Below are positions 13,600 through 22,412 of a stretch of 41,343 bases of DNA, piece after piece. Under the pieces are notes generated by a model. The model saw only the letters and a list, made by a program, of their open reading frames with translations, ran no database searches and was not told the DNA's origin. This stretch comes from Oscillospiraceae bacterium. GTDB taxonomy: Bacteria; Bacillota; Clostridia; Oscillospirales; Oscillospiraceae. Every line of letters begins with the position of its first letter. The first letter of the stretch is position 1. The stretch lies in assembly GCA_902765595.1 (NCBI GenBank), contig CACXAQ010000011.1, positions 1-41,343 of the forward strand. Direction: 5' to 3'. The position numbers were made by a program, and so were the translations under genes.

Positions 13600-14397
13600 T
13601 CAGGCTTTGAAGGTGGTGATGATATGGCGCGGGCAGACCAGGGCGCAGTGACCGCACTGGGTGCACTTGCTGGTGTCGATCTTCGCCACAAAATTCTCCA
13701 CGTGGATGGCGTCCGCCGGGCACTCCCGCTGGCACTTCATGCAGCCGATGCAGCCCGTCTTGCAGATCTTCATGACCTGGGCGCCCTTGTCCTGGTTGCG
13801 GCAGGCCACCATGGTCCGCTGCTTCTCGGGGATCAGCTGAACAATGTCCTTGGGGCAGGCGTCCACACAGGCGCCGCAGCCGACGCATTTGGAGCGATCC
13901 ACCTTGGCAACGCCCTTTACCACATGCATGGCGTCGAACTTGCAGGCCTTGGCGCAGTTGCCCATGCCGATGCAGGCAAAGGTGCAGAGCTTGTTGCTCT
14001 TGCCGCCGAAAAGCATGGCAGCGCGGCAATCCTCGGGACCGGTATAGTTGAAGCGCATCTCCGCCACGTTGTTGCAGCCGGAGCAGGGCACAAACGCGAC
14101 CTTCTTTTCCGCTGCGTCCGCAGCCACGCCCATGATCTCCGCGATCTTGGCCGCAGCCTCCGGACCGGACGCAACACACTTGTTGCAGGGGGCCTCACCT
14201 TTTGCCACCGCGGCGGCATAGCCGTCGCAGCCGGGGTATCCGCAGCCGCCGCAGTTGGCGCCGGCCAGACACTCACGGACAGCAGCCTGCTTGGGGTCCA
14301 CTTCAACATGGAAGATCTTGGAGGCAAAAGCCAGCAGCGCACCGAAGACAGCGCCCAGGGCGCCGAGAACGAGGACAGCATATAAAATAGACATCAT
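13600..14397 (-). CDS. rnfB: Rnf complex subunit B, multi-cluster ferredoxin-like protein
   Basis: This encodes 265 residues. An N-terminal membrane helix (residues ~4-25) is followed by the RnfB Fe-S domain (ANCGGCGYPGCDGYA near 47-61 with a later Cys), then cysteine motifs CTFACIGMGNCAKACK, CVGCGACVDACP, CIGCMKCQRECP and CTQCGHCALVCP for several [4Fe-4S] clusters. RnfB takes electrons from reduced ferredoxin into the Rnf complex, which passes them to NAD+ while pumping Na+ or H+. It is the last gene of rnfCDGEAB; ten bases separate it from rnfA, and AAGGAGG precedes the ATGATG start. Confidence 0.97.
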   Translation of the reverse strand: MMSILYAVLVLGALGAVFGALLAFASKIFHVEVDPKQAAVRECLAGANCGGCGYPGCDGYAAAVAKGEAPCNKCVASGPEAAAKIAEIMGVAADAAEKKVAFVPCSGCNNVAEMRFNYTGPEDCRAAMLFGGKSNKLCTFACIGMGNCAKACKFDAMHVVKGVAKVDRSKCVGCGACVDACPKDIVQLIPEKQRTMVACRNQDKGAQVMKICKTGCIGCMKCQRECPADAIHVENFVAKIDTSKCTQCGHCALVCPRHIITTFKA

Positions 14398-14406
14398 GCA
14401 CCCTCC

Positions 14407-14994
14407 TTAGAAGATCTTCATGCCGCTGAAGCCCATGAAGGCCAGAGCGACCAGGCCCGCAGAGATCAGGCAAATGGGGAATCCGTCAAAGCACTCGGGG
14501 TAATCGGCAAAAGCGATCCGCTCCCGAACGCTGGCAAACAGCACGATGGCCAGCATAAAGCCCAGACCGCCGGTAATGCCGTAGATCACGGAGCCCAGGA
14601 AGTCATAGCTGTTCTGCACGTTCAGCAGCACCACGCCCAGCACCGCGCAGTTAGTGGTGATCAGGGGCAGGTAAATGCCGAGTGCGGAGTACAGGGAGGG
14701 AACGGCCTTTTTCAGGAACATTTCCACGAACTGTACCAGAGCCGCGATGACCAGGATGAAGGCCAGGGTCTGCAGGAAGGCCAGGTCCAGCGGGACCAGG
14801 ATGAACTCGTTGACCACATAGCAGATGGCGGATGCCAGGCCCATGACGAAGACCACGGCCAGGCCCATGCCGGTAGCCGTCTCCACCTTGCTGGAGCAGC
14901 CCAGGAAGGGGCAGCAGCCAAGGAACTGGGAGAAGATGAAGTTATTGATCAGGATCGCACCGATGGCGATGGACAGATATTCCGTAACGCTCAT
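14407..14994 (-). CDS. rnfA: Rnf complex subunit A
   Basis: This encodes 195 residues, nearly all hydrophobic, with six predicted membrane helices. MSVTEYLSIAIGAILINNF, GCCPFLGCSSKVETATGMG and the TNCAVLGVVLLN stretch are typical of RnfA/NqrE. RnfA and RnfE form an inverted pair of membrane subunits that hold an intramembrane [2Fe-2S] cluster (conserved Cys in GCCP.. and TNCA..). The start overlaps the rnfE stop by four bases (ATGA), showing tight translational coupling. Confidence 0.97.
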   Translation of the reverse strand: MSVTEYLSIAIGAILINNFIFSQFLGCCPFLGCSSKVETATGMGLAVVFVMGLASAICYVVNEFILVPLDLAFLQTLAFILVIAALVQFVEMFLKKAVPSLYSALGIYLPLITTNCAVLGVVLLNVQNSYDFLGSVIYGITGGLGFMLAIVLFASVRERIAFADYPECFDGFPICLISAGLVALAFMGFSGMKIF

Positions 14995-15680
14995 GCTGCA
15001 TCCTCCTCTTCCGCAGCTTTCGCCGCTTCTTCTTTCTTCTTGGCAGCCTTCTTCAGCGCGGCCTGCATGGCGGCAAAGATGAAGCCCAGAGTCAGGAAGC
15101 CGCCCACGGGCAGGGTCAGGATGGAAGCGCCGTAGTCAGAATTGAAGAGCTGGATCCCGGTGCCGGTGCCGTCCAGAGTGATGCCCTTGGTCACGTCGAT
15201 CAGGCCGCCGCCGAAACGGCCGCTGCCCAGGAATTCGCGGATCAGACACATGACCACCAGCACAGCGGTGTAGCCAAGGCCCTGGGTGATACCGTCGGTA
15301 AAGGAGACGCCGATGGGATTCTTCTGGCAGAAGGCCTCGGCACGGCCGATGATGATGCAGTTGACGACGATCAGGGGGATAAACACGCCGAGAGACTCAC
15401 TCAGCGCGGGGATGAAGGCCTGCAGCAGCAGGTCCACGATGGTGACGAAGCCCGCGATGATGACCACAAAGATGGCCAGACGGATCTCGTCGGGGATGAT
15501 CTTGCGGATGGCGGAGACCGCCACGTTGCAGCAGGTCAGGATGATGAGCACCGACAGGCCCATACCGACGCCGTTGAAGAGCGAGGTGGTGATGGCCATG
15601 GTGGCGCACATGCCAAGCTGCTGGACCAGAATGGGGTTATTGGTGATAACGCCTTCTTTAAGCTGTTTCTTGAAGTTCAT
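14991..15680 (-). CDS. rnfE: Rnf complex subunit E
   Basis: This encodes 229 residues. It begins MNFKKQLKEGVITNNPILVQ, and LGMCATMAITTSLFNGVGMG and VNCIIIGRAEAF are hallmark RnfE/NqrD segments, with conserved cysteines matching the intramembrane cluster shared with RnfA. There are six hydrophobic helices, then a charged lysine/glutamate/alanine-rich C-terminal tail (KKAAKKKEEAAKAAEEEDAA). It lies 12 bp after rnfG. Confidence 0.97.
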   Translation of the reverse strand: MNFKKQLKEGVITNNPILVQQLGMCATMAITTSLFNGVGMGLSVLIILTCCNVAVSAIRKIIPDEIRLAIFVVIIAGFVTIVDLLLQAFIPALSESLGVFIPLIVVNCIIIGRAEAFCQKNPIGVSFTDGITQGLGYTAVLVVMCLIREFLGSGRFGGGLIDVTKGITLDGTGTGIQLFNSDYGASILTLPVGGFLTLGFIFAAMQAALKKAAKKKEEAAKAAEEEDAA

Positions 15681-15692
15681 TTCCTCGCCTCC

Positions 15693-16286
15693 TTAACCCA
15701 GCATCTGTTCCACAAACTCGATGGCGGCGGCGGTGGCGTTGGTCACGCTGCGGGAGGTGATGGTGGCGCCGGAAAGGGCGTCGATCTCACCGCCGGCCTT
15801 CTTGAGCTGCACGAACTTGGAAACACCGATGAACTGATTGCGGAAATTCACACCCACATCCGCGGCGCTGGCGGCGTTGGCGCCAAGGCCGGCGGTCTCG
15901 GAGTGCTTGGTGATGGAAACGCCGGTGCAGGTCAGCCGGTTGCTGACGCCCACCACCATGACGATGGTGCCCTGGGCGCCGGAGAACTCGGTCTCCACCA
16001 CATAACCGGCATCGTCAGCCGCCTTGGAAACGGACAGGATCTTGATCTTCTGGCCGTTGGAGTTGATGGTGGTGCTCAGGCCCAGGGGCTTCAGATCCAC
16101 CGGGATGTATTGCTGCTCTCCCTCGGGAACATGGACGGGCATAACCTTGGAAAAGGCCTCGTTGGTCTTGTTGGTCTGGTACGCGTTGATGGGTCCTCTG
16201 GTGACCATGTCCACCGCGCCGAGCACGCCGGCCACAATGGCGCAGATCAAGAACAGGACCAGGGTCAGTTTCAGGATCTTATTCAT
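15693..16286 (-). CDS. rnfG: Rnf complex subunit G, covalent FMN protein
   Basis: This encodes 197 residues. One N-terminal membrane helix (~5-28) anchors an extracytoplasmic FMN-binding domain. The flavinylation motif is visible in DALSGATITSRSVT near the C-terminus, where the Thr in SGAT is the expected FMN attachment site. The HSETAGLGA segment is also typical. Its start overlaps the rnfD stop by four bases. A flavin transferase (ApbE) would be needed and must be encoded elsewhere. Confidence 0.96.
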   Translation of the reverse strand: MNKILKLTLVLFLICAIVAGVLGAVDMVTRGPINAYQTNKTNEAFSKVMPVHVPEGEQQYIPVDLKPLGLSTTINSNGQKIKILSVSKAADDAGYVVETEFSGAQGTIVMVVGVSNRLTCTGVSITKHSETAGLGANAASAADVGVNFRNQFIGVSKFVQLKKAGGEIDALSGATITSRSVTNATAAAIEFVEQMLG

Positions 16287-17332
16287 TTGGCAGCCTCCTT
16301 TGCGGCGAGCTTCTCCGCTTTCTTTGCCGCCTTTTCCGCTGCGATGTCCTCCTTGGACACGCCGAACTGGTGACGGTGGAAGCCCTTGTCAATGGCCCAG
16401 GCGCACAGGTTCATCAGCAGGATCGCGTAGCTGACGCCCTCGGGGAAGCCGCCGAAGTAGCGGATCAGCACCGTGATGGCGCCGCAGCCCGCGCCGTAGA
16501 GCAGCTGGCCCTTGAGCGTCACGGGGCTGGTGGCGTAATCGGTCGCCATAAAGAAGGCGCCGAGGAACAGGCCGCCGGAGAGGATGTTCAGGAGCATGAA
16601 GTCCACATTGCCCATCCCCTGGCCGCCGAAGATCAGCGTCAGGAGCGCGACCGTACCGATAAAGGACACGGGGATCCGCCAGGAGATGACCTTGCGGGCG
16701 ATCAGGTAGATGCCGCCGATGAGCAGGGCCAGGGCGCTGATCTCACCGATGGCGCCGGGGGTCAGGCCCAGGAACAGCGCCTTGGCGCTGTAATACTCGG
16801 GCATGCCCTCTCCCCCGTACAGGAAGGCAAGCGGCGTTGCGGTGGAGATGGCGTCGATGCCCTCGATGCCCTTCATAGCGGCGGGCGCCTGGAAGCGGCC
16901 CATGAGCATGGCATAAGAGGCCAGCAGAAATGCGCGGGCGGCCAGGGCCGGGTTCAGGAAGTTCTTGCCGATGCCGCCGTAGAGCTGCTTGACCACCACG
17001 ATGCCGAAGAAGGTGCCGATCACCGGCAGCCACCAGGGGGCGGCGGGGGGCAGCGTCAGCGCCAGGAGAAGGCCGGTGACCACGGCGGAGAGATCGCCGA
17101 TGGTGGCGGACTTGTGGGTGAATTTCCGGTACAGCCACTCGAAGAACACGGCAGACAGGACGGAGGACGCGATGACCACCAGCGGGTGCAGGCCGAATTG
17201 CCAGACGGACACCGCCACGGCAGGCAGCAGCGCCAGGATCACATTCAGCATCAGGCGCTGGGTATCGGTCTTGGTCCGGACCTGGGGCTGGTATGCTACG
17301 TCCAGGATGATACGTTCTTTTTTCTCGTTCAT
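16283..17332 (-). CDS. rnfD: Rnf complex subunit D, membrane FMN protein
   Basis: This encodes 349 residues with about ten membrane helices. The motif GIDAISTATPLAFL carries the Thr expected to bind FMN covalently. Other family marks are GKNFLNPALAARAFLL and FMATDYATSPVTLKGQ. The C-terminus is a charged alanine/lysine tail like that of rnfE and rnfC here. It starts on the last base of the rnfC stop (TAATG), so expression is coupled. Confidence 0.97.
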   Translation of the reverse strand: MNEKKERIILDVAYQPQVRTKTDTQRLMLNVILALLPAVAVSVWQFGLHPLVVIASSVLSAVFFEWLYRKFTHKSATIGDLSAVVTGLLLALTLPPAAPWWLPVIGTFFGIVVVKQLYGGIGKNFLNPALAARAFLLASYAMLMGRFQAPAAMKGIEGIDAISTATPLAFLYGGEGMPEYYSAKALFLGLTPGAIGEISALALLIGGIYLIARKVISWRIPVSFIGTVALLTLIFGGQGMGNVDFMLLNILSGGLFLGAFFMATDYATSPVTLKGQLLYGAGCGAITVLIRYFGGFPEGVSYAILLMNLCAWAIDKGFHRHQFGVSKEDIAAEKAAKKAEKLAAKEAAK

Positions 17333-18675
17333 TACTTGGCCTCCTTTGCTGCTGCCTCAGCCTTGGCCTTTTCCTTGGCGGCCTTGGCCTGGAACATCAG
17401 CTTTGCGGTCTTGAAGGCGTGGGTCAGGGGCATACGGGCGGGGCAGTTGAAGGAACAGCTGCCGCACTCGAAGCAGTCCATCACGTGGTATTTCTCCAGG
17501 TTCTCAAAGTCGCCCTTGGAGTAGTACATGTACATGAACACCGGCTCCAGGTTCATGGGGCAGACGGTGATGCACTTGCCGCAGCGGATGCAGGTGGGCT
17601 CATCCACGTGCCGATCTTCCTCTTCGGTAAAGAACAGCACGCCGGAGGTGCCCTTGATGGTGGGGGCCTCAAAGCTGGTGGCGCAGATGCCCATCATGGG
17701 TCCGCCCAGGACGATCTTTCTCGGCGTCTTCACGAAGCCGCCGCACTGCTCGGCCAGGTACTCAAAGGGAGTCCCCACACGGGTCAGGCCGTTGACAGGC
17801 TCCTTCAGCGCGCTGCCGGCAACGGTAACGATCCTCTCGATCACGGGGCGTCCCTCGTAGCAGGCCTGATAGATGGCATAGCAGGTACGGGTGGAGACCA
17901 CGTTGGCTCCCACGCCGGAGGGCAGCCCGCCGGGCTTCACTTCGCGGCCCGTGACAGCCTTGACCTGCATTTTCTCAGCGCCCTGGGGGTACTTGACCTT
18001 CTCGGGCACGATCTCGATGCCGTACTGCTCAGGATGCAGGGAGTTGAGCAGGTCGATGGCGTCCTGCTTGTTGGTCTCAATGCCGTAATAGGCTTTATCC
18101 AGACCGCTGGCGATACGGACCAGTTCAATGCCCTTGAGCAGATGCTCGGGGTAGTTGAGCATGGTCAGATGGTCGCCGTTCAGATAGGGCTCACATTCCG
18201 CGCCGTTGATGACCAGCTTATCCACCTTGCCGATGCCGCCGCGGATCTTGAACGCCGTGGGGAACATGGCGCCGCCCATGCCGACTACGCCGGCCTCGCG
18301 GATCCGCTCCAGGATGGCTTCGGGGTCCTTCAGCTGCGCTTCCGTCAGCGGCTCCATAAAGGCCGGGGTGTCCTGATAGTCATTCTCAATGACGATGGAC
18401 ATGATCATATCGCCAAGGGGGTGGGGCCGGGGCTCCACCGCCACGACCTTGCCGGAAACGGAAGCGTGGACAGGAGCGGAAACGGGAGCAGGATTCTCGC
18501 CGATCTTCTGGCCCATCTTCACATAGTCGCCCTTCTGCACCAGGGGCTTGCAGGGTGCGCCGATGTGCTGCGCCATGGGAATGACGACCTGCGGAGGCGG
18601 CGCAATCACGGTGATCGGAATATCCGGCCGTTTCATGTAATTCGGGTGTACGCCGCCTTTGAACGTGTGGGACAT
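17332..18675 (-). CDS. rnfC: Rnf complex subunit C, NADH-binding
   Basis: This encodes 447 residues from ATG at 18675, which has GAGGTGA upstream; an open frame further upstream would run through the promoters and was rejected. It starts MSHTFKGGVHPNYMKRPD. GVVGMGGAMFPTAFK lies in the flavin/NADH-binding fold, and two [4Fe-4S] motifs are present: CIRCGKCITVCPMNLEP and CFECGSCSFNCPARMP. RnfC reduces NAD+ on the cytoplasmic side. It is the first gene of rnfCDGEAB, the order seen in clostridia and acetogens. A K/A/E-rich tail ends the protein. Confidence 0.97.
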   Translation of the reverse strand: MSHTFKGGVHPNYMKRPDIPITVIAPPPQVVIPMAQHIGAPCKPLVQKGDYVKMGQKIGENPAPVSAPVHASVSGKVVAVEPRPHPLGDMIMSIVIENDYQDTPAFMEPLTEAQLKDPEAILERIREAGVVGMGGAMFPTAFKIRGGIGKVDKLVINGAECEPYLNGDHLTMLNYPEHLLKGIELVRIASGLDKAYYGIETNKQDAIDLLNSLHPEQYGIEIVPEKVKYPQGAEKMQVKAVTGREVKPGGLPSGVGANVVSTRTCYAIYQACYEGRPVIERIVTVAGSALKEPVNGLTRVGTPFEYLAEQCGGFVKTPRKIVLGGPMMGICATSFEAPTIKGTSGVLFFTEEEDRHVDEPTCIRCGKCITVCPMNLEPVFMYMYYSKGDFENLEKYHVMDCFECGSCSFNCPARMPLTHAFKTAKLMFQAKAAKEKAKAEAAAKEAK

Positions 18676-18728
18676 AAGCTTCACCTCGTATAAGAAGATT
18701 CTCAAACAGACGTATCCATGCGGGGTGT

Positions 18729-18758
18729 ATTGTACCACAATTTGTCGCAGGCTGTCTA
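18729..18758 (-). promoter_or_regulatory. Second candidate rnf promoter
   Basis: On the minus strand TAGACA (18758-18753), 18 bp, TACAAT (18734-18729) with an extended TG. It lies downstream of a stronger candidate at 18798-18827 and would give a leader of about 47 nt to rnfC. Confidence 0.5.
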
Positions 18759-18797
18759 CACGGAGGAGGCGGAAAAATGCCAAAATCAAAAGATAAG

Positions 18798-18827
18798 TTT
18801 ATAACAATCCTGTTAATTGCTTGTCAA
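18798..18827 (-). promoter_or_regulatory. Main candidate rnf promoter
   Basis: On the minus strand TTGACA (18827-18822), 18 bp, TATAAA (18803-18798). The resulting leader before rnfC is about 115 nt. No riboswitch was recognised in it. Confidence 0.7.
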
Positions 18828-18962
18828 AGTTCCCGGATTTGAATTTGCGATTTCAAGAATGAGACTTCTTTTCGTGCCGGTTTTTGCAAGAATTGCTTCT
18901 GCCGGGGGACAATCCACGTTATTTGGGGTATTTCTTTCCGGTCTGCATACGCAAGAAAAGCA

Positions 18963-19001
18963 GGCGGGCGGTTTCTCTTCGAGGAAGAGAAACCGCCCGC
19001 C
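18963..19001 (-). terminator. Terminator of the pseudokinase-lectin gene
   Basis: A perfect 18-bp stem (18963-18980 with 18984-19001) with a 3-nt loop, followed on the minus strand by TGCTTTTCTT. It sits 19 bp past the stop at 19021 and insulates rnf from this gene. The rest of 18828-18962 holds nothing I can identify. Confidence 0.85.
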
Positions 19002-19020
19002 CGATGAACCAATCTGGGAT

Positions 19021-20625
19021 TCAGTTTTCAAATTCACACACGTAGCCCATCACGCCGCTGTAGTACTGGGGGTAATCGGCGGCAGGATCATTGCGGTTAT
19101 CATTGTAAAACCAATCGTTGTCCGATTTAAATACCATGATATAGTCTTCGGGAACGGAATCGTAATCGTCCCAATAGCTTGGCTCCCCTTCCGCCCAGTT
19201 GGTGTAATTCACCGGGTCGTCAGTCTCCCATACAAGCTGATCGTTTTGACGGTGGCAGCCGATCCAGAACCTGGTGAGTCCCTGCGCCTCAGCCAGGGCT
19301 TTGACCTCTTCAAATTCCTCTCGTGAGGAAATCACAGCCAAATGTCCGCCCTGCGCGATGCAGGCGTCCCGGGCCTGGGTCCAGCTCATATCCGAAACCG
19401 TGACCGTGTAGCGCGGCTGCACAGGAACCACAATGGACTGCTCCGGCTCGACGACAGTTTCCTCGGTCTGTTCCGGTTCTTCAACCGCCTGCGCGTAGTA
19501 TGCGCTGGGATCCGGCGTAGGATTGATCTGGGTCGCCCGCTGAGGCGGGAAAAACAGCCAGTTGGCAAGAAGAGCCAGCGCCAGCAGCAGCAGGCAGCAG
19601 ATCAGTACCACGGCAAGCGGGCGGCGGCTGCGGCGTTTTTTCACTTCCTCATCCGCCTTTTGCTGCACCTTCGGATCTGAGGTGTTTCGGCTGTAGCGGG
19701 GCTGCTGACGAAGGACCACCGGTTCCAGCTCCGGATTCTCTTCAACGGTCAGGATCGGGATTGGCTGCCGGTCTTTCCGGTCATGGGAGGGCTCGTACAG
19801 GCGCACGTCCTCTGATTCCTCGGAGTTTTCCTCCTCTGTATCCTTCAACACGCCCATGGACCCGAAGAATTCTTCCACCATGGCGCTGACATTTTCCTTT
19901 TCCACGGGGACAGGATCCGGCTTTTCCATGCCTGCGATCTCCTCCGGGCTCAGATCCGCGCTCGGTACTTCGCTTTCCTCTTCCTCGCGCTCCGTCTCCT
20001 CTTCCCCGCTGCGCTCAATGATTTCCACCAACATGCGCTCAATGTCGCTGAGCTGATTTTCCTCTTTCTTGAAAACCGCTTCCGCGCCGGAGGAACCGCC
20101 CAGATACTTGTTGTCCAGGCAGCTTTCCAGCATGATCCCGAATTGTTCGGGGCTCTCGTAGCGGTCGGAGGGACGGAAAGACGTGGCCTTTTCCAGTACT
20201 TCGCCAAGGCGCTTTCCGGCGGACTTGGGTGCGGGGAGGACCTTGCCGCTCATACGGGCCAACTGGCCGCTGGAGGTCGCGGTGTCAAAGGGCAGCAGCC
20301 CGCCGCCCAGGCCGTAATACACCAGGAGGGCGAGAGAGTACACGTCGGCGGCGGGGCCGGTCTCGCCATGCCAATAGAGCTCCGGCGCAACGAACTCCAG
20401 CTCCTGTCCGGTCCACTTTTCCCGCTTTGCGGGACCGATGGCATACGCGCCCTCTTCATTTACGCAGATATTTTCAGGGAAAATGCCGCCGCGCCAGGCA
20501 TGGGATCCCAGCTCTGCCTGCAGGTGCAGGCAAAGCCCGGCGACGAAGCGGCAGAGCTCCTGCCGGTCCATATCCAGCAGGCCCTTACCGATGGCTTTTC
20601 CCGGGTCATATTCCAATTTGCTCAT
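19021..20625 (-). CDS. Pseudokinase - transmembrane - extracellular C-type lectin protein
   Basis: This encodes 534 residues. Residues ~20-175 resemble a Ser/Thr kinase C-lobe: WRGGIFPENICV occupies the catalytic-loop place, EFVAPELYW the APE motif and DVYSLALLVYYGL helix F, but there is no N-lobe glycine loop or VAIK lysine, the HRD Asp is Gly, and the DFG site reads AIGP. It should be catalytically dead. Residues ~180-335 are acidic and low-complexity with a basic stop-transfer (KKRRSRR). One membrane helix spans ~336-359. Residues ~405-534 are a C-type lectin-like domain (SWTQARDACIAQGGHLAVISS, FWIGCHR, NWAEGEP, GYVCEFEN with paired cysteines). The lectin would lie outside and the pseudokinase inside. 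It is a single-gene unit with its own promoter and terminator. Ligand and output are unknown. Confidence 0.88.
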   Translation of the reverse strand: MSKLEYDPGKAIGKGLLDMDRQELCRFVAGLCLHLQAELGSHAWRGGIFPENICVNEEGAYAIGPAKREKWTGQELEFVAPELYWHGETGPAADVYSLALLVYYGLGGGLLPFDTATSSGQLARMSGKVLPAPKSAGKRLGEVLEKATSFRPSDRYESPEQFGIMLESCLDNKYLGGSSGAEAVFKKEENQLSDIERMLVEIIERSGEEETEREEEESEVPSADLSPEEIAGMEKPDPVPVEKENVSAMVEEFFGSMGVLKDTEEENSEESEDVRLYEPSHDRKDRQPIPILTVEENPELEPVVLRQQPRYSRNTSDPKVQQKADEEVKKRRSRRPLAVVLICCLLLLALALLANWLFFPPQRATQINPTPDPSAYYAQAVEEPEQTEETVVEPEQSIVVPVQPRYTVTVSDMSWTQARDACIAQGGHLAVISSREEFEEVKALAEAQGLTRFWIGCHRQNDQLVWETDDPVNYTNWAEGEPSYWDDYDSVPEDYIMVFKSDNDWFYNDNRNDPAADYPQYYSGVMGYVCEFEN

Positions 20626-20657
20626 ACGATCTCCCCCGAATAAGGATTCGTAATTTT

Positions 20658-20686
20658 ATCTTATCATAGAGGAAAAATTATGTCAA
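20658..20686 (-). promoter_or_regulatory. Promoter of the pseudokinase-lectin gene
   Basis: On the minus strand TTGACA (20686-20681), 17 bp, TAAGAT (20663-20658) with an upstream TG (extended -10). The start codon is 33 nt beyond. This is among the best promoters in the window. Confidence 0.75.
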
Positions 20687-20710
20687 CCGAGAGAATTATG
20701 GAAATTCTCT

Positions 20711-22321
20711 CTAAATGTCTTTTTCGATCCGCTCCGCCAGCTTTTCAACCCGGTCGGCATGGCCGGCAAGCTCTTTGTTCGCGTGCCCTTCCAGTTTTCT
20801 TGCCGCCGCCAGCAGCCGCTCGGCCGCCGCAATAAGCCGCGCAAAGGCGGGGCTGACCTTCCTTCCGCCTGTATTTTTCTTCTCGATGGGAACGCCCTCG
20901 GGAATGCGGATGAACTGTCCGGACAGGGGATCAAATTCTGTTCCGCTGTAGGGTGCGAAGGCATGATAACCCAGTTCTTCGTTCAGGCACCTGGTAAAGC
21001 TGTCTGCGGTTTCCGGGTCGCCGTGATTGACGAAGACCAGCTTCGGCTTTTCCCGAAAACCGCCCAGCCAGCGCAGCAGGCCGTTTTTATCCGCATGACC
21101 GCTGACGCCGGGCAGCACGTCGATCTGGGCGCGCACCTCGATATCCTCACCGAAGAGTTTAACGCTCTTGACCCCGTCCACCAGGATTCTTCCCAGGGTT
21201 CCCACAGATTGATAACCCACAAAAAGCACCGTACACTCCGGCCGCCAGAGGTTGTGCTTCAGATGGTGCCGCACACGGCCCGCGTCACACATGCCGGATG
21301 CGGAGAGGATGACCTTGGGGGTCTTGTCATCGTTGATGGCCTTGGATTCCAGATCACTGACCGTGAGTTCCAGGCCGGGGAATACCATGGGGTTTACGCC
21401 GGAGCGGATCAGCTTCTGCATCTCCTCGTCCAAAAACTGCGTGTCGCACTGGAGAAAAATGGAGGTAGCCTCAATGGCAAGGGGGCTGTCCACATAGACG
21501 GGGAACGCCCCGTGTCCTTTGACCAGGCCCCGCTCCTTGATCTCCCGGATAAAGTAGAGCATCTCCTGGGTACGGCCCACGGCGAAGGAGGGAATGATCA
21601 TGTTGCCGCCCCGATCCAGGGTGGTCTGGATCCGTTTGGCAAGCTCCTCCACATAGTTGACCCGTTCCTCACTGTGGAGCCGATCCCCGTAAGTGGACTC
21701 GATCACCAGGTATTCCGTATCCTCCACAAATTGAGGGTCCCGCAGGATGGGCTGATCCAGATTGCCGATGTCCCCGGAGAAGGTGATCTTCCGGGTCTCT
21801 CCCCTCTCGGTAAGCCAGACCTCTATGGCAGATGAACCCAGCAGATGGCCCACGTCCGTCAAGCGGATCGAGACACAGTCATTGACCTGGATCACTTTGC
21901 CGTAGTCGCAGGGACGCAGGCAGCCGACGGCGCCCAGAGCATCGTCCATATCATAGAGCGGTTCCACCGGCGCCGCGCCGCTGCGCTGGCCCTTGCGATT
22001 TTTCCACTCGGCGTCGCTCATTTGGATGTTGGCGCAGTCACGCAGCATGATGTCGCACAGCGAACAGGTGGCGGCGCTTGCGTAAATGGGGCCTCGAAAG
22101 CCTTCCTTATACAGCAGGGGGAGCTTTCCGGAATGGTCCACATGGGCGTGGGTCAGCAGCACGAAGTCGATGTCCTTGGCCGCGACCGGGAGCTCCTGAT
22201 TGACGAACAGGTCCTTCCCCTGCTCCATGCCGCAGTCCACCAGGCCTTTTTTATCGCCCGCTTCGATCAGGGTACAGCTGCCTGTGACCTCATGGGTGGC
22301 GCCCAAAAAGGTGATCTTCAT
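20711..22321 (-). CDS. Metallo-beta-lactamase/beta-CASP protein (RNase J/CPSF73-like)
   Basis: This encodes 536 residues. The zinc-binding HAHVDHSG motif sits near residue 60, with further ligands in DVGHLLGSS and FSGDIGN. The central beta-CASP part has VESTYGDR, IPSFAVGRTQEML and ILSASGMCDAGRVRHHLK, and SGHADKNGL closes the active site. These are the marks of RNA-specific MBL hydrolases related to archaeal/eukaryotic CPSF73 (YSH1), distinct from bacterial RNase J. RNA cleavage is the likely role, with substrate unknown. The last ~70 residues form a charged helix (ARLIAAAERLLAAARKLEGH...) not usual for the family, possibly a dimerisation coil. It has its own promoter and lies between polC and the lectin gene. 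Confidence 0.9.
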   Translation of the reverse strand: MKITFLGATHEVTGSCTLIEAGDKKGLVDCGMEQGKDLFVNQELPVAAKDIDFVLLTHAHVDHSGKLPLLYKEGFRGPIYASAATCSLCDIMLRDCANIQMSDAEWKNRKGQRSGAAPVEPLYDMDDALGAVGCLRPCDYGKVIQVNDCVSIRLTDVGHLLGSSAIEVWLTERGETRKITFSGDIGNLDQPILRDPQFVEDTEYLVIESTYGDRLHSEERVNYVEELAKRIQTTLDRGGNMIIPSFAVGRTQEMLYFIREIKERGLVKGHGAFPVYVDSPLAIEATSIFLQCDTQFLDEEMQKLIRSGVNPMVFPGLELTVSDLESKAINDDKTPKVILSASGMCDAGRVRHHLKHNLWRPECTVLFVGYQSVGTLGRILVDGVKSVKLFGEDIEVRAQIDVLPGVSGHADKNGLLRWLGGFREKPKLVFVNHGDPETADSFTRCLNEELGYHAFAPYSGTEFDPLSGQFIRIPEGVPIEKKNTGGRKVSPAFARLIAAAERLLAAARKLEGHANKELAGHADRVEKLAERIEKDI

Positions 22322-22353
22322 TTCAGGATCCCCTCCATCCGTCTTTTTTATCT

Positions 22354-22382
22354 ATTTTACACCTGCCCGGACCGCCATGCAA
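22354..22382 (-). promoter_or_regulatory. Promoter of the MBL/beta-CASP gene
   Basis: On the minus strand TTGCAT (22382-22377), 17 bp, TAAAAT (22359-22354), about 32 nt before the ATG at 22321. GGAGGGG forms the ribosome site. Confidence 0.65.
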
Positions 22383-22412
22383 GCAACTTCAGAAAGTTTC
22401 AGATTTCCCGGG

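Follow-up and report, generated by a model that had tools for sequence, protein, structure and literature searches.

A Bacterial Membrane Pseudokinase Reduced to a Kinase C-Lobe and Carrying a C-Type Lectin Domain: A Candidate Non-Catalytic Receptor in Oscillospiraceae

Overview

The window considered here, a stretch of 41,343 nucleotides (nt) from an Oscillospiraceae bacterium, encodes a protein of 534 amino acids (aa) in which an isolated protein-kinase C-lobe is followed by an acidic linker, one membrane helix, and a C-type lectin domain (CTLD). The gene occupies 19021–20625, stop codon included, and is read on the minus strand from 20625 to 19021 (ATG start, 534 codons); 49 full-length orthologs were found among 58 other loci of the same genus. 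Comparison of these sequences, combined with AlphaFold2 models and structure searches, revealed a kinase-derived domain that has lost its catalytic residues and kept its structural ones, behind a promoter conserved among the orthologs. We regard it as moderately probable that the protein is a non-catalytic lectin receptor in which the half-kinase serves as a protein-docking domain. An earlier sequence-only reading of this DNA had proposed a transmembrane pseudokinase with an extracellular lectin domain at these positions; the open reading frame was indeed found there, and its strand, which that reading did not give, can now be added.

The Kinase-Derived C-Lobe

Residues 1–172 (20110–20625, minus strand) form a kinase C-lobe running from αD to αI, with no N-lobe, according to AlphaFold2 models, Foldseek, and alignments. 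A model of residues 1–190 (mean predicted local distance difference test score, pLDDT, 87; predicted template-modeling score, pTM, 0.84) agrees with the full-length model apart from helix ends. The latter displays helices at 13–18 and 21–39 and strands at 53–55 and 61–63, followed by helices at 73–78, 81–86, 91–106, 120–125, 138–147, and 159–171, an order that matches a kinase C-lobe. With this domain as the query, all 50 matches listed by Foldseek were protein kinases, the best having an E-value of 3.5e-7 and a TM-score of 0.69 over the query (TMq), so the kinase lobe that had been assigned to residues 1–180 from the sequence is recovered in the structure models. The Pfam profiles Pkinase and PK_Tyr_Ser-Thr match residues 75–156 below cut-off (E 0.02–0.03) and cover only profile positions 161–252 and 167–249, which correspond to the C-lobe, and the NCBIfam PASTA kinase model matches residues 78–211 (E 7.8e-8; 31.8 bits against a cut-off of 450).

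All 50 full-length proteins, namely the window protein and its 49 orthologs, start at a position aligned with αD/αE, and no counterpart of the Gly loop, the VAIK Lys, or the αC Glu was found in any of the 50 aligned rows or in the AlphaFold2 models. Only 85 nt separate the ATG from the stop codon of the preceding gene, which encodes a β-CASP protein, leaving no room for a hidden N-lobe upstream; this gap, together with the lack of an N-lobe in every row, rules out a concealed upstream lobe or a frameshift. The earlier remark that the protein has no nucleotide loop was correct as to the loop and understated the extent of the loss, as the complete N-lobe is gone and the protein begins near αD. 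With no N-lobe in the models, ordinary nucleotide binding would not be expected of this half-kinase.

Residue counts over the same 50 proteins, at positions that we take to be the counterparts of HRD, DFG, APE, αF, and other kinase elements, revealed which features have been kept. HRD is replaced by RGG at residues 45–47 (20485–20493, minus strand), Gly46 and Gly47 standing in place of its Arg and catalytic Asp in 50/50, so the Asp-to-Gly change first noticed in the window protein is universal in this set. The Lys of HRDxK is aromatic throughout (Tyr in 31, Phe in 17, Trp in 2). Where the DFG Asp would stand (residue 65, as set by aligning intact kinases to the lobe profile), Pro occurs in 40 proteins, Asp in 3, Ala and Glu in 2 each, and Gln, Thr, and Leu in 1 each; the window protein carries Pro65, in line with the replaced DFG reported earlier, and the Asp is lost in 47/50 overall. 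Pro81 and Glu82 of APE, Asp94 of αF, and Arg155 are each present in 50/50, and 18 columns inside the lobe, W85, R124, and K146 among them, are invariant across these divergent sequences. Mean pairwise identity reaches 51% in the C-lobe, versus 48% in the CTLD and 21–23% in the linkers. Judged from this alignment, what selection keeps is the kinase fold and not catalysis, because catalytic residues are lost in 50/50 while structural residues are invariant.

Another enzymatic activity of the half-kinase, such as the AMPylation or glutamylation of SelO and SidJ, would find some encouragement in Asn52 (the Asn of HRDxxxxN), which is kept in 50/50, and in the three proteins with Asp at the DFG column. 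The missing N-lobe, Gly loop, and VAIK Lys, combined with the loss of the HRD Asp in all proteins and of the DFG Asp in nearly all, nevertheless make such an activity extremely improbable.

The C-Type Lectin Domain

Residues 403–533 (19027–19419, minus strand) form a CTLD that is predicted to lie outside the cell. Pfam Lectin_C (PF00059) matches residues 412–483 (E 4.8e-11; 43.8 bits against a cut-off of 22.6), and the full-length AlphaFold2 model contains a confident CTLD at residues 401–534. With the full model as the Foldseek query, CTLD matches to lithostathine (E 8e-8), SRCL, ASGR1, and others appeared besides the kinases, with TM-scores over the target (TMt) of 0.70–0.78 for several of them. 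A phmmer search against the PDB gave 204 matches at E ≤ 10, of which the best 60 of 204 were animal CTLD-type proteins (top E 1.2e-18). The C-type lectin fold proposed from the sequence is thus well founded.

E481, E493, N508, and D509, presumably the ligand positions of Ca2+ site 2, are conserved as putative Ca2+ ligands (E481, E493, and D509 in 50/50, N508 in 45/50), as is P482 (50/50). In CTLDs, mannose-type specificity goes with the motif EPN and galactose-type specificity with QPD. Position 483, the third of this motif, is Ser in 43/50 and Thr in 7/50, giving EPS or EPT, which is neither canonical form, so a classical sugar specificity is not predicted. The earlier proposal of a glycan receptor signaling by protein binding is therefore supported by the conserved Ca2+-site-type residues and qualified by the Ser or Thr at the sugar-specifying position, and it should be worded conditionally. 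When window positions 17300–22400 were examined for a diversity-generating retroelement, the end of the CTLD was found nowhere repeated, a reverse transcriptase not having been searched for; a phage origin was rejected, as 50,697 phage records yielded one CTLD-only match (E 2e-9).

Membrane Helix and Linker

The AlphaFold2 model and hydrophobicity place a transmembrane helix at residues 335–358 (19552–19623, minus strand), after the basic stretch KKRRSRRP. The protein has one hydrophobic segment, peaking at residue 336, which accords with the single helix described before. The basic residues ahead of the helix suggest, by the positive-inside rule, that the C-lobe is located inside the cell and the CTLD outside.

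The linker, also recognized earlier as acidic, carries 43 Asp or Glu and 17 Lys or Arg between residues 188 and 330. A first conserved, putatively cytoplasmic motif, AE..F.K....LS..ERM...I, covers residues 178–207 (20005–20094, minus strand) with a mean pairwise identity of 50% and with K187, L192, and I202 in 50/50; by eye it is present in most of the lobe-less orthologs described below, and it is not visible in those of loci L037 and L050, the latter a short open reading frame (loci are numbered L and genomes G throughout). Residues 208–284 (19774–20004, minus strand) are acidic and modeled with low confidence (pLDDT mostly below 55), share 23% mean pairwise identity, and are probably disordered. 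A second conserved motif on the presumed cytoplasmic side, IP.LT.E..PELEPVV, spans residues 285–312 (19690–19773, minus strand; mean pairwise identity 45%; P302 in 50/50, L300 in 49/50). Across the 50 full-length proteins, no invariant or nearly invariant column is a Ser or Thr, and Thr293 of the second motif is present in only 25/50, so fixed phosphorylation of a linker Thr has no support.

Orthologs and the Wider Family

Searches with the window protein gave a match in 71/99 genomes. Among 61 same-genus genomes (G000–G060), G026 went unmatched, and G056 matched only more weakly, through the intact kinase of L182. Fifty-eight other same-genus loci were read beside the window, in incomplete assemblies that make absences soft: 49/58 encode a full-length ortholog (open frames of 516–592 aa), and 9/58 encode a lobe-less form of 318–428 aa that starts just after the kinase lobe and keeps the membrane helix and CTLD. 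In a CTLD tree (72 rows, 134 columns; many unresolved forks and several long-branch warnings), the lobe-less rows are situated among full-length rows, three label changes being needed and one origin also possible. Since relatives in other genera carry the lobe, the simplest reading of the lobe-less forms is loss within the genus. A vestigial remnant, that is, a decaying kinase with a functionless C-lobe, would fit this placement of the lobe-less genus members as well as the deep catalytic loss, yet the 18 invariant lobe columns, the 51% identity, and the recurrence of the same lobe in the further records described below indicate purifying selection, and we consider decay very unlikely.

Beyond the genus, the closest named records (L094–L122, of the best 80) are titled Oscillospiraceae, Ruminococcaceae, Eubacteriales, Clostridiales, or Clostridia, and isolate names, where they disclose a source, point to goat, sheep, roe deer, red deer, or rabbit (Lapin). 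The lobe profile matched 191/295 genomes of the order at E ≤ 1e-10, most of the matches examined being ordinary kinases. Eighty-five open reading frames from selected loci matched this profile (some rows are one protein twice), among them 15 distant N-lobe-less proteins with E < 1e-33, followed by the next best match at 5e-26. Their matches begin within the first 36 residues, or in two of them at residues 96 and 134 after an acidic tail. The 15 lobes carry HG(G/N/A) or RGG, with the HRD Asp in 0/15 and the APE Glu and αF Asp kept. Their records are titled Oscillospiraceae, Ruminococcaceae, or Clostridia, or belong to three genomes from other genera in the same family (L197–L199 come from two such genera), and L114/L115 and L126/L127 are near-copies. 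The CTLD profile is matched by 12/15; L119 has three SH3_3 repeats instead, L125 and L126 are truncated where their contigs end, and L120 and L127 show one SH3_3 domain ahead of a weaker CTLD-type match. The architecture that the sequence-only reading had suggested looking for in relatives is therefore present in 49/58 genus loci and, by CTLD profile, in 12 of the 15 distant proteins. Homologs with intact kinase motifs, by which the same reading would have been overturned, were found only as separate kinases, the catalytic Asp being lost in 50/50 proteins here and 15/15 distant ones.

The remaining 70 weaker rows, counted by hand, have Asp at the catalytic position in 57, lack it in 5 (L206, L207, L132, L134, and one of L136), and are unaligned there in 8. 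The CTLD profile is matched by only 1/70, a protein of L136 that is also without a visible catalytic Asp by eye. Located at L136:1298–3448 (plus strand) in an uncultured Ruminococcus, this 717-aa pseudokinase-like protein has a membrane segment (by eye), a CTLD match, and a longer N-terminal part, and is possibly a less reduced relative. At L142:3953–5338 (plus strand), from Candidatus Ruminococcus avistercoris, a kinase-C-lobe-like start is joined to a polytopic membrane domain (by eye), and L131, L133, L134, and L140 encode proteins of 909–1049 aa with a kinase-like N-terminal part and a degenerate or unaligned catalytic loop, that of L131 carrying fibronectin type III domains (Pfam). CTLD relatives without the lobe were also seen: L064 (6712–7533, minus strand, 273 aa; lipoprotein-like by eye, with an acidic repeat), L070 (220 aa; lipoprotein-like by eye), and L090 (932 aa), the N-terminal part of which resembles a glutamine-amidotransferase fold by eye.

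These forms bear on whether the protein is instead a surface lectin, adhesin, or wall-sensing protein that sends no signal inward and uses its C-lobe only as a cytoplasmic plug or assembly domain. Nine orthologs that keep the membrane helix and CTLD without the lobe speak for it, as does the lipoprotein- or secreted-like appearance of L064, L070, and L090. Conservation of the lobe to the same degree as the CTLD, and retention of the APE Glu and αF Asp in 15 distant lobes, speak against it, and we hold this explanation to be fairly unlikely. With a receptor as the preferred reading, the set as a whole could represent a family, found in Oscillospiraceae of the gut and rumen, whose core is an autonomous C-lobe that persists without its N-lobe and relays information from interchangeable ectodomains (SH3 repeats, a C-type lectin, or the two together) purely by docking partners, a generalization that we put forward tentatively and at somewhat less than even chance.

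Transcription and Gene Neighborhood

A promoter, TTGACA-17-TAAGAT with a TG ahead of its second hexamer, is located between the β-CASP gene and the CTLD gene (20658–20686, minus strand), followed by a ribosome-binding-site-like GGGGGAG read by eye (20631–20637, minus strand). Promoters with at least 9/12 matches occur inside the β-CASP gap in 38/40 loci, versus 3.7 expected from base shuffles. A TG-extended promoter lies within 150 nt in 36/40 loci with an adjacent β-CASP gene, in 7/9 full-length loci without one (43/49 together), and in 4/8 lobe-less loci tested, compared with 37/428 other predicted genes, a control rate that may be too low as their starts were set mechanically. Just 3′ of the stop codon is a terminator-like hairpin with a 20-bp stem (18961–19003, minus strand) and a T-rich tail after it, the stretch 18945–19020 folding at −40.3 kcal/mol (z −6.1). 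Because a conserved promoter precedes the gene with or without an adjacent β-CASP gene, the CTLD gene is probably its own transcription unit, with read-through from β-CASP possible.

The upstream neighbor itself (20711–22321, minus strand) encodes a metallo-β-lactamase/β-CASP/RMMBL protein of RNA-processing type (Pfam). It lies 59–445 nt upstream on the same strand in 40/49 full-length loci and 0/9 lobe-less loci (39/49 of the full-length loci by neighbor clustering with codon-position filtering), and is also upstream in L116 and L125 among 17 further loci viewed, several of which have short flanks. The β-CASP gene is present in 54/62 genus genomes, and in the nine full-length loci without adjacency, for which 2.9–7.2 kb of upstream flank was read, it was located elsewhere in 4 and not found in 5. 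As 7/9 lobe-less genomes contain it in a non-adjacent position (56–60% identity to the window copy), the 0/9 adjacency may go back to a single event on the tree or to a few. A functional pair, with the receptor tethering or regulating β-CASP, would account for the frequent adjacency; a gene that is PolC by eye is upstream in 16/49 full-length loci. The nine full-length loci and seven lobe-less genomes just mentioned tell against such a pair, and the promoter, present with or without adjacency, shows that an operon is not required; we rate the pairing as quite unlikely, and an obligate operon with β-CASP is likewise weakened by the conserved promoter.

On the other side of the gene, an Rnf-type electron-transport cluster (13600–18789, minus strand; gene names by eye) starts directly 3′ of the terminator-like hairpin. 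An obligate link to these genes was rejected, as an RnfC-type gene is downstream in only 4/49 full-length loci and the hairpin stands between. Within the flanks retrieved, genes for a class A β-lactamase-like protein and for SBP_bac_3 occur downstream on the same strand in 13/49 and 16/49 full-length loci (one of the 16 weak, 22%) and in 3/9 and 3/9 lobe-less loci, upstream on the opposite strand in 8/49 and 8/49, and downstream on the opposite strand in one full-length and one lobe-less locus. The β-lactamase-like protein has three homologs elsewhere in the genome of the window (E 2.5e-77, 2.6e-55, and 1.1e-18). At L058:9019–11593 (plus strand), SBP_bac_3 comes after such a protein, which by eye has a membrane segment and an acidic tail.

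Kinases and Candidate Partners

No intact kinase adjoins the CTLD gene at this locus, as had been remarked earlier. The single intact kinase found by Pfam Pkinase in the genome of the window (G000, 84% complete) is a PASTA kinase encoded elsewhere, next to a PP2C-type phosphatase (label by eye). The only FHA protein found in this genome (L226:166–1866, minus strand, contig G000:C1) joins an N-terminal FHA domain to an FtsW/RodA-like polytopic part (by eye). PASTA kinases were found in 55/62 genus genomes and in 23/23 good ones. By hand count, Ser/Thr kinases are expanded in G022, G037, and G053, where the PASTA kinase model hits 12, 8, and 13 times (E ≤ 1e-20), versus 1–2 times in 44/62 genus genomes.

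These proteins could be the partners of a cell-wall control arm, with the C-lobe docking either the FHA-SEDS wall polymerase or the PASTA Ser/Thr kinase. Mycobacteria have a comparable circuit in MviN/FhaA/PknB, and the distribution of the PASTA kinase, the fusion of FHA to an FtsW/RodA-like part, and the β-lactamase-like and SBP_bac_3 genes near part of the loci are consistent with such an arm. To our knowledge, however, PASTA kinases are near-universal in such bacteria, so their co-occurrence says little; moreover, the kinase gene is elsewhere in the genome, and the proteins lack an invariant Ser or Thr. FHA binding by YukC, as described in PMC9600267, provides a further comparison in favor. 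On balance this arrangement seems unlikely, and the PASTA kinase and the FHA-SEDS protein are leads only.

Proposed Mechanism and Significance

Under the preferred reading of a non-catalytic lectin receptor, the Ca2+-type CTLD would bind a ligand outside the cell, most likely a glycan or another molecule of the envelope or the host surface. Inside, the C-lobe, lacking the N-lobe and catalytic residues and thus presumably unable to bind ATP normally or transfer phosphate, would offer a folded protein-docking surface, and the two short conserved linker motifs would probably be further binding sites. Ligand binding might then alter how the docking surface is clustered or positioned, and signaling would proceed inward by recruitment and not by phosphorylation.

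Several observations weigh against this model. The conserved Asn52 leaves residual metal binding possible, and an Asp is found at the DFG column in the close relatives L066, L068, and L073 (GDG, by eye), in which the HRD Asp and N-lobe are still lost, and in the distant L116. The missing invariant Ser or Thr and the EPS/EPT motif count in the same direction, and the lobe-less forms at 9/58 loci suggest that the protein works, or persists, without its lobe in some species.

Pseudokinases normally have two lobes, and their function is mostly explained through the hinge or the ATP pocket that lies between these. A C-lobe that appears to be selected on its own in a putative receptor of the bacterial membrane has neither, and only the docking surface remains. 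Such a half-kinase receptor would offer a clean test of what the kinase fold does without catalysis, and the family suggests that bacteria of the herbivore gut possess a set of lectin-type receptors.

Comparison with Known Systems

The closest parallels in build are EssB/YukC of the type VIIb secretion system (T7SSb) and TraF of the pIP501 type IV secretion system (T4SS). Like the window protein, these proteins have an N-terminal cytoplasmic pseudokinase with degraded catalytic motifs, one membrane helix, and a C-terminal domain outside, and they act as interaction hubs (PMC9600267, PMC13037476, PMC12599244). YukC fails to bind ATP, and copurification links its pseudokinase domain to the FHA region of the YukB ATPase (PMC9600267); TraF is described as similar in build (PMC13037476). 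It is this precedent that makes a non-catalytic hub plausible here. The differences are equally clear: TraF keeps an N-terminal five-strand part and has an all-helical C-terminal domain (PMC13037476), and YukC has a degraded Gly loop and a stalk (PMC12599244, PMC9600267), whereas the window protein has no N-lobe and carries a CTLD outside. Membership in the EssB/YukC family was rejected, as neither the window protein nor its genome gave a match to Pfam YukC (PF10140), and the window pseudokinase is not two-lobed in the models.

The PASTA Ser/Thr kinases (PrkC/Stk1/PknB) share a cytoplasmic kinase-derived domain, a membrane helix, an outside sensor, and a weak sequence match; they differ in that the window protein has no N-lobe, HRD Asp, or PASTA repeats, and the PASTA kinase of the genome is a separate gene. 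The best-scoring intact relatives of the C-lobe in these searches (E 5e-26 or weaker) are clostridial kinases with Gly loops like GRGS(F/Y)G (for example L176, L182, and L203), which in contrast have two lobes, HRDIKPxN, and other C-terminal domains. The bacterial pseudokinase families ActPs1–3, GLW, CP1, DYD, and DLHK are alike in having lost catalytic motifs within a Ser/Thr kinase fold. A 2025 review of such families lists a VAIK-type motif for every entry of its Table 1 (PMC12599244), a region that the window protein lacks; its main text contains neither 'lectin' nor 'C-lobe', and 'N-lobe' once, for ActPs3. No C-lobe-only pseudokinase and no bacterial pseudokinase–lectin receptor appeared in the literature searched by titles and the beginnings of abstracts. 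On the lectin side, the vertebrate CTLDs of lithostathine, SRCL, ASGR1, and Endo180 are alike in fold and Ca2+-site-type residues and differ in having EPN or QPD, whereas the window protein and its orthologs have EPS or EPT and are bacterial membrane proteins. Taken together, these comparisons suggest, by analogy, that the window protein functions as transmembrane pseudokinase hubs do, with a lectin for its ectodomain, being itself neither an EssB/YukC protein nor a PASTA kinase.

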